Source: Granulicella sp. L46 (GTDB taxonomy: Bacteria; Acidobacteriota; Terriglobia; Terriglobales; Acidobacteriaceae). Taken from it: a stretch of DNA of 64,000 bases. The translations under genes and the position numbers were made by a program. Location of the stretch: contig NZ_LMUT01000012.1 in NCBI RefSeq assembly GCF_009765785.1, positions 368,150-432,149 of the forward strand, given 5' to 3'. The notes beneath the pieces are model-generated. The model was not told the DNA's origin. It searched no databases and was given only the letters and a program-made list of their open reading frames with translations. Below, piece by piece: positions 22,044-27,678 of this stretch. Positions within the stretch are counted from its first letter, which is position 1; the number at the start of each line of letters is the position of its first letter.

Positions 22044-22096
22044 ATTGAGCAGCGTGGCACCACAACCTGACACACCCATTGGGCATCCGAGTAGTT

Positions 22097-22246
22097 ATGA
22101 AGAAACTTAGTCTTGGATTTCTCGCTCTGATGTTCCTCGCTCCGCTGGTACCTGCGGCGAGCGCCCAGGTTGTCGTTGCCGTTGGTCATCCGTATCACCA
22201 CCATCATCATTGCTGGTACAGCCATCACCATCGTCATTGCAACTAG
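22097..22246 (+). CDS. Exported histidine-rich micropeptide 1
   Basis: A 49-residue frame: signal peptide MKKLSLGFLALMFLAPLVPA with an ASA-Q cleavage site, then a mature peptide of 26 residues with ten His and two Cys. The mature part is QVVVAVGHPY, five His, then CWYSHHHRHCN. The motif C-x-Y-x-H-x-H-R-H-C is shared with the two genes downstream. Five His, a Cys pair and export suggest binding of zinc, nickel or copper in the periplasm; this is inference. The ribosome site is weak. A matching terminator follows at 22274-22301. I know no named family. Confidence 0.8.
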   Translation: MKKLSLGFLALMFLAPLVPAASAQVVVAVGHPYHHHHHCWYSHHHRHCN

Positions 22247-22273
22247 TTGGGCTGCTCCGGCTGTGTAATTCTG

Positions 22274-22301
22274 ACCCAATTCAAGGCGACTTGAGTTGGG
22301 T
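22274..22301 (+). terminator. Hairpin terminator of micropeptide gene 1
   Basis: ACCCAATTCAAG and CTTGAGTTGGGT pair over 12 positions (one G-U) around GCGA. The T-run is weak (TGATTGTTG). Its outer stem is the same as that of the terminator behind micropeptide gene 3. Confidence 0.65.
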
Positions 22302-22367
22302 TGATTGTTGAATCAGGATGGTTGATTTTGCATTTGTTAAGACTCACAGAAGGAGAGGTCTGATCTC

Positions 22368-22502
22368 ATGAAGAAGCTTGCGCTTGGAGTTCTTGCTCTT
22401 TCGTTCCTCGCAACGATGGTTCCGTCAGCGAGCGCGCAGTATGACCACCACCATCATCACCATCACTGCTGGTACAGCCACCATCATCGTCATTGCAACT
22501 AA
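22368..22502 (+). CDS. Exported histidine-rich micropeptide 2
   Basis: A 44-residue frame: signal peptide MKKLALGVLALSFLATMVPS with ASA-Q cleavage. The 21-residue mature peptide is QYD, seven His, then CWYSHHHRHCN, so 11 of 21 residues are His. The last 11 residues equal those of peptide 1. The ribosome site AAGGAGAGG is strong and lies about 10 bases before the ATG. The identical core with a varied His run shows recent duplication under constraint. The probable role, metal binding outside the cytoplasm, is inferred from composition only. Confidence 0.8.
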   Translation: MKKLALGVLALSFLATMVPSASAQYDHHHHHHHCWYSHHHRHCN

Positions 22503-22631
22503 TCGGTGATTGCCGGGTTAGAACTTCTAGATCGAACCAGTGACGATTCGTTTGATACCTGATCTGGTACAAGCGGAGAATTACGATTCGGTTTGCACAA
22601 TAGTAGGAAGAAAGAAGGGTATCCTGCCATT

Positions 22632-22796
22632 ATGAAGAAGCTCGCGCTTGGAATTTTCGGTTTCGTTTGCCTGGTATCGCCCCTCGTTCCTGTAGCGAGT
22701 GCGCAGGCTGTGGTCGTGGTCGGACATCCGCACCACTATCATCACCACCGGGTCTGCACGTACCATCACGGTCATCGTCACTGCTACTACCGCTAG
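22632..22796 (+). CDS. Exported histidine-rich micropeptide 3
   Basis: A 54-residue frame: signal peptide MKKLALGIFGFVCLVSPLVP with a VASA-Q cleavage site, mature part QAVVVVGHPHHYHHHRVCTY followed by HHGHRHCYYR. It keeps the VVVGHP start of peptide 1 and the C-x8-C spacing with Y, H, H, R and H at the same places, but is the most divergent copy. The ATG at 22632 is preferred over the upstream in-frame start at 22593 because it begins the signal peptide shared by all three. A strong terminator follows. Confidence 0.8.
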   Translation: MKKLALGIFGFVCLVSPLVPVASAQAVVVVGHPHHYHHHRVCTYHHGHRHCYYR

Positions 22797-22831: not shown

Positions 22832-22875
22832 AACGACCCAACGCGAGGGGACTCGGGTTGGGTCGTTTGCTTTTT
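22832..22875 (+). terminator. Strong intrinsic terminator of micropeptide gene 3
   Basis: AACGACCCAACGCGAG pairs fully with CTCGGGTTGGGTCGTT (one G-G mismatch) around GGGA, then GCTTTTT. The outer ACCCAA/TTGGGT stem matches the hairpin after gene 1, while the inner stem differs on both sides. Confidence 0.85.
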
Positions 22876-22892
22876 CGCACAAAGCTGCTGGC

Positions 22893-25031: not shown

Positions 25032-25502
25032 CTATTCGCCATAGTTGGTTTCGTCGCGGATGCGGTTGCGGAGGGCGTCGGCGTCCGGGGTTGCGGGCAA
25101 GGCGACGGGCGTGAGGCGGTCGTGGCGCTTTTTCCAGAGACGCAGCAGCAACAGGATCAGGATGATGCCGAACAGAAGGAAGGCGAATGGGCCGATCCAG
25201 GCTACCGTGTCGAAGCCGCCGCGCACGGGTTCGGCGAGGGCTATCGGGCCGTACTTGACGGTGAAGAACTTGAAGACCTGCGCGTCGGTGCCGCCGGCGT
25301 CGAGTTGGGCGTGCAGGTCGGCGATCTCGCCGGTGGAGTTGGGGCAGCCTACGTGGTTGCACTCGAGCAGGATCTGGCTGCAGCCGCAGGTGCACATGAG
25401 GTCGTGGCCTAGGCGGCCGAAGCGTGCCGAGGGAGAGCTTGCGCCGAGCATGGTGAAGGCTACGAAGACGATGAGAACAAGTTGCAGGGCGCGCTTATAC
25501 AT
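25032..25502 (-). CDS. ccmH: Cytochrome c-type biogenesis protein CcmH
   Basis: 156 residues: an N-terminal membrane anchor or signal (LQLVLIVFVAFTMLGASS), a periplasmic domain, and a C-terminal membrane helix (FAFLLFGIILILLLLRLW) with a basic tail. CcmH reduces apocytochrome and works with the CcmF heme lyase. In place of the usual LRCxxC the motif is LMCTCGCSQILLECNHVGCP, with five cysteines, as seen in some non-proteobacterial CcmH. The start at 25502 has GGAG upstream and overlaps the ccmF end by 8 bases, so translation is coupled. Confidence 0.85.
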   Translation of the reverse strand: MYKRALQLVLIVFVAFTMLGASSPSARFGRLGHDLMCTCGCSQILLECNHVGCPNSTGEIADLHAQLDAGGTDAQVFKFFTVKYGPIALAEPVRGGFDTVAWIGPFAFLLFGIILILLLLRLWKKRHDRLTPVALPATPDADALRNRIRDETNYGE

Positions 25503-27678
25503 GGGGAGCTCCAGGGCTGGCTGGCGCCGACGATCCCGAGCGGAATACAGGGGTCTCTCCACTGCGCTGCGCTCCGGTCGAGATGACGGATCCTAAGGGT
25601 GGTGCGGCCGGAGAGAGAAAGTTTGCGGGGACTTCTACGCGGCGCGTGGAGGGTTTGAGCGGAGGAACCAGCGCGATGAAGGTGCCGAAGATCACGATGA
25701 CGACGCCTACCCAGATCCAGTTGACCAGCGGATTGATGAAGAACTTGATGATGGGCTTTTGGTTGTCGGGGTTGGTGCCTTCGAAGACTACGTAGAGGTC
25801 GTTCTCAAGGGACGAATGGATAGCGACGATGGTGGAGGGCTGGGCGTGGTCGGTGTTGACGAAGTACACGCGACGCTCGGGCGCGAGGCGCGTGATCAGC
25901 TTGCCGTTGTGATAGACGTCGAGCAGCGCAAACTGCGAATCGTAGTTCGCGTTGGAGTCTTCGGAGTAGCTCTGGCATACGACTTTGTAGCCGCCCACGT
26001 TCATGGAGTCGCCAAAGCTCATCTCGGCTTCGCGGGACTGGTTGAAGGCGGAGCCGGCCAGGCCGATGAACATGACGACCACGCCGAAGTGAATCAGGTA
26101 GCCGCCGTAGCGGCGGGTGTTGCGGCGGGTAAGAAGGATGGTGGATTCGAACAGGTTCTTGCCGGTCTGGGTGTGGACGACGTTGGCGCCGCGGAGAAAC
26201 TCCGCAGCGATCGCAGTGATGACGCCGACGCCGAGCGCGATGCAGACCAGCGCATAGATGCTGGAGCCGACATCGCCGGCTGCCTGGGTATCCGCAGACC
26301 AGGGACGTACGCCTGCGATGATCAGCACGAGCGTCGTGACAATGATCGCGATGCAGGGAAGCACGAAGTTGCGGCGGATAGCGCGCAGCGAGGTGGAGCG
26401 CCAGGCGAGCAGCGGACCGACGCCGGTGAGGAAGAGAAGGAAAATGCCGATGGGCACGGCGACGCGGTTGTAGAAGGGCGCGCCCATGGTGACCTTCGAA
26501 CCCTGAACGAACTCGGAGAGCACGGGGAAGAGTGTTCCCCACAGAACGGTGAAGCAGGCGGCGAGCAGGACGAGGTTGTTGAAGAGGAACGAGCTCTCGC
26601 GCGAGACGAGGGACTCGAGGTGATTCTCGTTCTTCAGGTGATCCCGGTTGTACAGATAGGTGAAGAGGCAGACGCCGAGCACGAGCACGAGGAACCAGAC
26701 AAACCAGGTACCGATATCGCTCTCCGCAAAGGCGTGCACGGAGGCGACCAGACCGGAGCGGGTAAGCAAGGTTCCGAGGATGGTGAGGATGAAGGTGGTG
26801 AAGATGAGCCAGACGTTCCAGCCCTTCATCATGCCGCGTTTCTCCTGCATCATGACCGAGTGAAGGAAGGCCGTGCCGGTAAGCCAGGGCATGAGCGAGG
26901 CGTTCTCGACCGGGTCCCAACCCCAGTAGCCGCCCCAGCCGAGCACGGCATAGGCCCAGTGCATGCCGAGGATGATGCCGCAGGTGAGGAATAGCCACGC
27001 AACCATGGTCCAGCGGCGGGTGATGGCGATCCACTTCTCACCCGGGTAGCGCATCATCAGGGCACCTAGAGCAAATGCAAATGGAACCGAGAAGCCTACG
27101 TAGCCGAGGTACAGCATCGGCGGATGGATCATCATCTCCGCATACTGAAGCAGCGGATTGAGACCGAAGCCATCCGCGGGGCCAATGCCTCCGGGAACGA
27201 TGGCGAAGGGCAGAGCGACGAAGTTGATCAGCAGCAGGAAAAAGATCTGCACGCCGGCGAGGATGGTGGAGGCGTAGGCGTGGAGCGTGATGTCGCTCTT
27301 GTGGCGGATGCGAAGGACGAAGCCGTAGCCGGCGAGCAGCCATGCCCAAAGTAGCAGCGAGCCTTCCTGCCCGGCCCAGATGGAGGAAAACTTCCAGTAC
27401 CAGGGGAGTGCGATGCTGCTGTGGTGGAGGACGTAGTCGACTGAAAAGTCGTTCGTGGCAAAGGCCCAGATCAGGGCGAAGGCGGCGGCGGTTACGGCGA
27501 TGAAGCTGGCGATGCCGGCGCGGCGGGCGGTCTCACGGATGCGTTCCGGAGCGACGGCCAGGGCTCGTCCGTGAGCGATGGCCCAGAGCGAGAGCGTTCC
27601 GGCAAGAAGGGTATACACCGCTAGCCCGAGTGCCAGGAGGAGGGAGACGCTGCCAAAGAATGGCATGGGATGGGGCAT
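25495..27678 (-). CDS. ccmF: Cytochrome c heme lyase subunit CcmF
   Basis: A 727-residue polytopic membrane protein with about 14 helices. The tryptophan-rich heme-handling loop GWGGYWGWDPVENASLMPWL (about residues 245-265) is the CcmF/CcsA hallmark, and histidines for heme b are near GKEWIA-like and HSVMMQEKRGMMKGWN segments. It joins heme to apocytochrome c at the outer face of the membrane. The last roughly 30 residues (SVISTGAQRSGETPVFR onward) are encoded by a dispersed repeat, and the true domain likely ends near FLSP. AAGGAAGT precedes the start. Other ccm genes are not in the window. Confidence 0.95.
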   Translation of the reverse strand: MPHPMPFFGSVSLLLALGLAVYTLLAGTLSLWAIAHGRALAVAPERIRETARRAGIASFIAVTAAAFALIWAFATNDFSVDYVLHHSSIALPWYWKFSSIWAGQEGSLLLWAWLLAGYGFVLRIRHKSDITLHAYASTILAGVQIFFLLLINFVALPFAIVPGGIGPADGFGLNPLLQYAEMMIHPPMLYLGYVGFSVPFAFALGALMMRYPGEKWIAITRRWTMVAWLFLTCGIILGMHWAYAVLGWGGYWGWDPVENASLMPWLTGTAFLHSVMMQEKRGMMKGWNVWLIFTTFILTILGTLLTRSGLVASVHAFAESDIGTWFVWFLVLVLGVCLFTYLYNRDHLKNENHLESLVSRESSFLFNNLVLLAACFTVLWGTLFPVLSEFVQGSKVTMGAPFYNRVAVPIGIFLLFLTGVGPLLAWRSTSLRAIRRNFVLPCIAIIVTTLVLIIAGVRPWSADTQAAGDVGSSIYALVCIALGVGVITAIAAEFLRGANVVHTQTGKNLFESTILLTRRNTRRYGGYLIHFGVVVMFIGLAGSAFNQSREAEMSFGDSMNVGGYKVVCQSYSEDSNANYDSQFALLDVYHNGKLITRLAPERRVYFVNTDHAQPSTIVAIHSSLENDLYVVFEGTNPDNQKPIIKFFINPLVNWIWVGVVIVIFGTFIALVPPLKPSTRRVEVPANFLSPAAPPLGSVISTGAQRSGETPVFRSGSSAPASPGAPHV
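25543..25587 (-). repeat. Dispersed repeat inside the 3' end of ccmF
   Basis: On the minus strand it reads GTCATCTCGACCGGAGCGCA and ends CCCCTGTATT, the same family as at 785-818. It is read in frame as the C-terminal tail of CcmF. Confidence 0.8.

Follow-up and report, generated by a model that had tools for sequence, protein, structure and literature searches.

The window, a stretch of 64,000 nucleotides from Granulicella sp. L46 (GCF_009765785.1, contig NZ_LMUT01000012.1), contains three small genes in tandem, flanked by a dnaX gene (minus strand, divergent) and a SET-domain gene (minus strand, convergent), both assigned by Pfam, with a TPR gene (Pfam) beyond the latter. The features on which the analysis relies are the following:

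22063-22096, plus strand: promoter-like CAAC-N17-CATC, then 9 bases to the ATG of gene 1, without a ribosome site
22097-22246, plus strand: micropeptide gene 1, 49 aa; signal peptide 1-23; mature peptide QVVVAVGHPYHHHHH-CWYSHHHRHC-N
22270-22305 (ends approximate), plus strand: terminator-like hairpin behind gene 1
22349-22367, plus strand: ribosome-site-like stretch ahead of gene 2, AGAAGGAGAGG
22368-22502, plus strand: micropeptide gene 2, 44 aa; signal peptide 1-24 or 1-23; mature peptide QYDHHHHHHH-CWYSHHHRHC-N
22608-22631, plus strand: ribosome-site-like stretch ahead of gene 3, AAGAAGGG
22632-22796, plus strand: micropeptide gene 3, 54 aa; signal peptide, then mature peptide QAVVVVGHPHHYHHHRV-CTYHHGHRHC-YYR
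22832-22877 (ends approximate), plus strand: terminator-like hairpin with a T-rich tail behind gene 3
25032-25562 and 25495-27678, minus strand: ccmH and ccmF, cytochrome c maturation (Pfam), 2.2-4.9 kb from gene 3

All three products start with MKKL-[AS]-LG, followed by a hydrophobic stretch and a cleavage site between A-S-A and Q, an export signal of the Sec type as judged from sequence alone. Beyond this site, mature peptides of 26, 21 and 30 residues remain for genes 1, 2 and 3, with 38, 52 and 33% His, and the core C-x-Y-x-H-x-H-R-H-C is present in each of them; the gene 3 product has one extra Cys, located in the signal peptide. These readings bear out the earlier note on this DNA, which had described three small genes of 49, 44 and 54 codons between dnaX and a SET-domain gene, with like signal peptides and an A-x-A-Q site, mature peptides of 21-30 residues with 33-52% His, and C-x8-C with shared motif residues in all three. 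Its statement that each gene has its own hairpin or ribosome site is also correct, with a hairpin alone at gene 1, a ribosome site without a clear hairpin at gene 2, and both at gene 3. A relaxed core pattern, picked once relatives were known, occurs 3 times in the six-frame translation of the window against a mean of 0.015 over 200 dinucleotide shuffles, none of which gave more than 1.

Among the neighbours read (11 proteins by Pfam, the remainder by reading), no metal transporter or metal regulator was recognised, and an Rfam scan of the window returned two tRNAs and nothing else. A ccmH gene is also found near the peptide at another locus (L005).

Relatives and selection on the core

Within the proteins of its own genome, a search recovered the three window peptides and one unrelated match (E 0.4). 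Searching the family with gene 3 alone found only its own genome among 120, so that a profile was needed. A profile of the three window peptides matches 17 of the 28 genus genomes, and the 16-row profile A2 matches 18; A2 was built from genus hits, which makes its E-values within the genus circular, the conservation and dN/dS values being independent of them. By frame reading, we obtained 23 complete Cys-bearing peptides from 15 of the 28 genomes, leaving out a copy in G126 that runs into ambiguous sequence. A complete Cys-bearing copy is absent from the other 13; among the 19 genus genomes with completeness of at least 90% and contamination of at most 5%, 15 have a Cys-bearing copy. Two of the loci come from records that carry an organism name, those of Granulicella paludicola DSM 22464, a laboratory strain with members of the set, and of a Granulicella MAG.

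The first Cys, the second Cys and the Arg are invariant (23/23 each), and two core His are each present in 22 of the 23. Core position 3 is occupied by Y (19), V (2), W (1) or F (1), and position 6 by H (18) or G (5). When 10 chosen pairs are pooled, dN/dS is 0.06 for the mature part, 0.21 for the signal peptide and 0.13 overall. From 17 chosen pairs, 2 were saturated at synonymous sites and gave no value, and 14 of the remaining 15 have dN/dS of at most 0.24, with synonymous sites close to saturation in many pairs; the outlier is formed by window genes 2 and 3 (0.42). The earlier note had staked its reading on C-x8-C being kept in related genomes and on dN/dS not being near 1, and neither check went against it. 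The three ORFs are real genes, whose frames are intact under selection; each product has a signal peptide, and the C-x8-C core does not vary.

Most relatives do not share the position of the window copies. In fourteen genus genomes a Cys-bearing copy lies upstream of carA, directly in thirteen and about 4.6 kb off in G125; G064 has two such copies. The usual order is DUF1800 gene, DUF1501 gene, hydrolase gene (opposite strand), peptide, carA and carB, although some genomes lack certain parts or have parts that were not recognised; the Pfam labels were verified at one locus (L074). In the other 12 carA genomes, the source genome included, no exported His-rich frame passing the filter was found within 2 kb upstream of carA (in four of them, up to the contig end). 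At dnaX, Cys-bearing copies are found in the source genome (three), G124, G127, G129 and G142, Cys-free copies in G125 and G127, and a broken copy in G126. Of 19 more regions upstream of dnaX, just one, in G120, holds an exported frame rich in His and Tyr, and this is of a different kind (L123:447-623, minus strand; 58 residues, exported-type, His/Tyr/Arg-rich, with a C-Y-R-C-R end). A Cys-bearing copy with the core CHYHNHHRIC (L080, G125:C16) has neighbours unlike those of any other locus. In three related genomes (L088, L089, L090), a Cys-free VVIAVGH peptide adjoins nad-type genes, named by reading of their proteins and not by family search; CAAC-N17-CATC is present in both of those tested.

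At E 1e-3, A2 matches 41 of 300 family genomes (14 in the genus and 27 outside), and at E 1e-4 it matches 10 of 247 phylum genomes, all within Acidobacteriaceae. We read 16 of the outside places, finding Cys-free His/Arg-rich peptides in 14 and C-x11-C peptides in two, both from one genus (L038 and L039; G202 and G095). These two peptides are exported-type and His-rich, with an HHHH-R-Y-C end, and one of them weakly matches the NCBIfam model mini_HHHH (25.6 bits). In two genomes outside the genus, G174 and G278, the carA place is occupied by a Cys-free peptide, which suggests a common origin.

A control profile, in which the order of the mature half was turned round and the signal peptide left intact, still matches 18 of the 28 genus genomes, 17 in common with A2 (G116 gained, G135 lost), because the signal peptide and composition supply part of the score. 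For 21 of the 23 Cys-bearing places, E-values range from 2.4e-23 to 3.3e-16 with A2 and from 6.9e-11 to 0.0076 with the reversed profile; the two weaker places pass from 4.6e-11 to 0.003 and from 3.3e-6 to no listed match. Four Cys-free copies show no drop (for example, 7.9e-8 against 1.8e-7, and 1.6e-7 against 5.2e-8), and two do, G125:C14 from 5.1e-8 to 1.1e-4 and G144:C68 from 7.6e-10 to 1.1e-4. The Cys-free His-rich peptides were not accepted as sequence homologues. Since weak and Cys-free matches can arise from signal peptide and composition, we claim sequence homology solely for the Cys-bearing set of the genus. Plasmids gave no match in tblastn with one relative as query and the low-complexity filter on, which is a weak test, and none of 31 pattern matches in viral contigs was confirmed.

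Control signals and predicted fold

Terminator-like hairpins, defined as exceeding the 99% level of 280 shuffled stretches, are found behind 25 of 28 genes (23 Cys-bearing and 5 Cys-free), the exceptions being window gene 2 and two near-identical genes of the nad locus. Most of these genes therefore seem to be single-gene transcription units. Two promoter-like motifs, selected after the data had been seen and counted with close relatives included, are present ahead of them: CAAC-N17-CATC, at 8-10 bases from the ATG in 8 of the 10 genes of the VVV type (nine relatives plus window gene 1), and AAAC[TC]-N15-18-TCT[CT]A in 8 of 15 carA-type genes (L068-L083), at -82 to -99, with one more at -169. 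We take both to resemble alternative-sigma (ECF-type) promoters.

The spacer of the first motif is exactly 17 in all eight genes, though the pattern permitted N14-19, and the background is 17 of 12810 ATGs, some being these very genes. It is absent in G129 and G126, and nad_G123 was left out of the count as a near copy of nad_G122. None of the 10 VVV-type genes has a ribosome-site-like stretch. Window gene 3 also encodes a VVVV start, but it has a ribosome site and no CAAC element, so that its inclusion gives 8 of 11. From their upstream sequences, the CAAC-N17-CATC genes without a ribosome site possibly produce leaderless mRNA, and this arrangement offers a handle on the sigma factor and the conditions of expression. 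The second motif is found at 15 of 12810 background ATGs and is missing in 6 of the 15 carA-type genes. A ribosome-site-like stretch precedes all 16 carA-type genes and the lone L080 copy (loose pattern, background 17%).

AlphaFold2, applied to the gene 2 peptide with 21 of the 23 Cys-bearing peptides, placed strands at residues 34-37 (CWYS) and 40-43 (HRHC), with block pLDDT of 85 and 81 and a pTM of 0.32, from few sequences. The ten-residue core is thus predicted to be a beta-hairpin with an H-H or H-G turn, Cys opposite Cys and Tyr opposite Arg, a pairing taken from the register and not from inspected coordinates. The presence of H or G at core position 6 is compatible with a turn, and a hairpin with facing Cys would explain the fixed C-x8-C spacing. 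For a Cys-free peptide with 7 sequences no strand was predicted, a weak contrast given the lower confidence throughout (pLDDT 66). VKOR can drive disulfide formation, and a VKOR homologue is present in 27 of the 28 genus genomes, the source genome included, so that a route to disulfides beyond the inner membrane is available.

Possible roles of the peptides

The reading that we prefer, with a probability of about 0.4, is that a disulfide-closed hairpin with a His tail buffers periplasmic metal. The exported micropeptides would come from three genes in tandem that each have separate control signals. In these peptides, the two Cys at the open end of the predicted hairpin would form a disulfide beyond the inner membrane, the invariant Arg facing the conserved aromatic residue. 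The closed hairpin and the preceding His-rich segment could form an imidazole cluster that reversibly binds Cu(II), Ni(II) or Zn(II), by which the peptides would buffer metal in the periplasm, and copies differing in His arrangement and promoter might differ in affinity or timing. The His content of 33-52%, the conserved and selected core, the terminator-like hairpins, the predicted fold and VKOR are the points that we count for this reading. Against it stand the 13 genus genomes with no complete Cys-bearing copy, the few sequences behind the fold prediction, and the failure to recognise a metal transporter or regulator at the loci read. Buffering alone does not explain why the Arg and the aromatic residue are as strictly conserved as the His. 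It is rather doubtful that the reading extends to a genus-wide scheme, in which scattered single-gene units under two alternative-sigma promoters (one leading to leaderless mRNA) would supply disulfide-stapled ten-residue metal hairpins as an exported metal-buffer pool of acid-soil bacteria.

The promoter-like elements in 8 of 15 carA-type and 8 of 10 VVV-type genes would also fit a role in envelope or acid stress, in which an alternative (ECF-like) sigma factor would switch on the peptides and these would buffer protons through imidazole or guard envelope components in acidic soil. We regard such a role as rather unlikely, since the motifs are post hoc, close relatives are counted and 6 of 15 carA-type genes have no element, and a fixed C-x8-C, Tyr and Arg are unnecessary for proton buffering. 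Some animal antimicrobial peptides are short Arg/His-rich hairpins with a single disulfide. The predicted window hairpin resembles them, and the peptides are exported, duplicated and variable outside the core, as could be expected for a cationic, disulfide-closed peptide secreted from the cell with membrane-active or antagonistic action; yet no adjoining immunity or export gene was recognised and the core is under strongly purifying rather than diversifying selection, making this role clearly improbable. The two invariant Cys and the proximity of ccmH and ccmF to gene 3 at the dnaX locus recall a carrier, linked to heme or to Cu(I)/thiol, that would serve cytochrome maturation; its Cys pair would switch from thiol to disulfide and back, and its His/Tyr cluster would hold metal or heme. 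However, the ccm genes are on the opposite strand with other genes intervening, and the Cys-bearing relatives are mostly found at carA, where the 6 kb read per side showed no ccm gene (by reading and 5 Pfam scans); we consider a carrier very unlikely.

The His runs and the terminator-like hairpin soon past the stop are reminiscent of a His- or Arg-rich leader peptide of an attenuator, and at carA the peptide is co-directional and just upstream of that gene. The window copies, on the other hand, are backed by the convergent SET-domain gene, a co-directional biosynthetic operon being present only at the carA locus of the relatives, which makes an attenuator leader unlikely here; a leader would, moreover, have no need of the conserved signal peptide, Cys, Tyr and Arg, and we give this explanation hardly any weight. 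Chance open frames in DNA rich in His codons, an idea invited by the short length and low complexity, are refuted by the conservation of the core in 15 genomes at shared places, by pooled dN/dS of 0.06-0.21 and by the shuffled windows (0.015 cores each), and we attach practically no credence to them. For periplasmic metal buffering, the composition-based guess is now replaced by a defined, selected ten-residue unit, C-x-Y-x-H-x-H-R-x-C, which can be synthesised and tested for metal, redox and membrane effects.

Comparison with known families

Pfam gave nothing convincing for the window peptides or the A2 set. DUF3551 (PF12071, 78 positions) was weakly matched by 4 of the 16 A2 peptides (best E 0.0013; 13.8 bits shown against a cut-off of 26.5) and is not among the Pfam matches of the window's three. 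BRANT_His_rich (NCBIfam NF047414), which is also short and His-rich, was weakly matched by a single Cys-free peptide of another genus (E 0.037, 15.1 bits, cut-off 44). Hpn and Hpn-2 of Helicobacter are cytoplasmic and are not known to have a signal peptide or a C-x8-C hairpin. All three window peptides, in contrast, have a signal peptide by sequence. Hpn and Hpn-2 are reported to be small His-rich paralogues that act on intracellular nickel, which Hpn sequesters (PMC4671568). The likeness is thus one of small His-rich paralogues, by description alone.

The core itself is already known, in the uncharacterised NCBIfam model NF040554.1, mini_HHHH ("HHHH-motif protein", 45 positions, cut-off 40 bits, function unnamed), which also describes short exported peptides with a Cys-Tyr-HHH-Arg-Cys core. 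The suggestion of the earlier note that the family may be overlooked does not hold as stated, though the window's three peptides have no match to this model at E up to 1. In a limited collection, searched partly by title, no literature was found on the HHHH-motif protein or NF040554, nor on His-rich or small proteins of Granulicella. From the A2 set, 10 of 16 peptides match mini_HHHH at E up to 0.1 (best 3.6e-9), and the best genus relative, a peptide of G123, reaches 38.5 bits, under the cut-off of 40. No match above the cut-off was found in 300 family genomes, 396 phylum genomes or 14 control genomes; members above it must belong to other phyla.

The core residues of mini_HHHH were deduced from a substitution scan of this one G123 relative and not from a view of the model: 6.1 bits are lost with either Cys, 13.3 with Tyr, 23.3 with HHH, 9.5 with both Arg, 5.4 with both Val and 5.9 with the C-terminal Trp, and the signal peptide by itself gives no match. 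Two Cys, Tyr, HHH and Arg are present in register in window genes 1 and 2, gene 3 having HGH for HHH. With 44-54 residues and an N-terminal signal peptide, the window peptides also match the length of mini_HHHH (about 45); they differ from it by a VVVxVGH insert or by extended runs of His. Judged by these residues, the window peptides are divergent relatives of mini_HHHH that fail its formal cut-off, and for the relatives of that model the analysis supplies genomic contexts, a predicted fold and candidate promoters.
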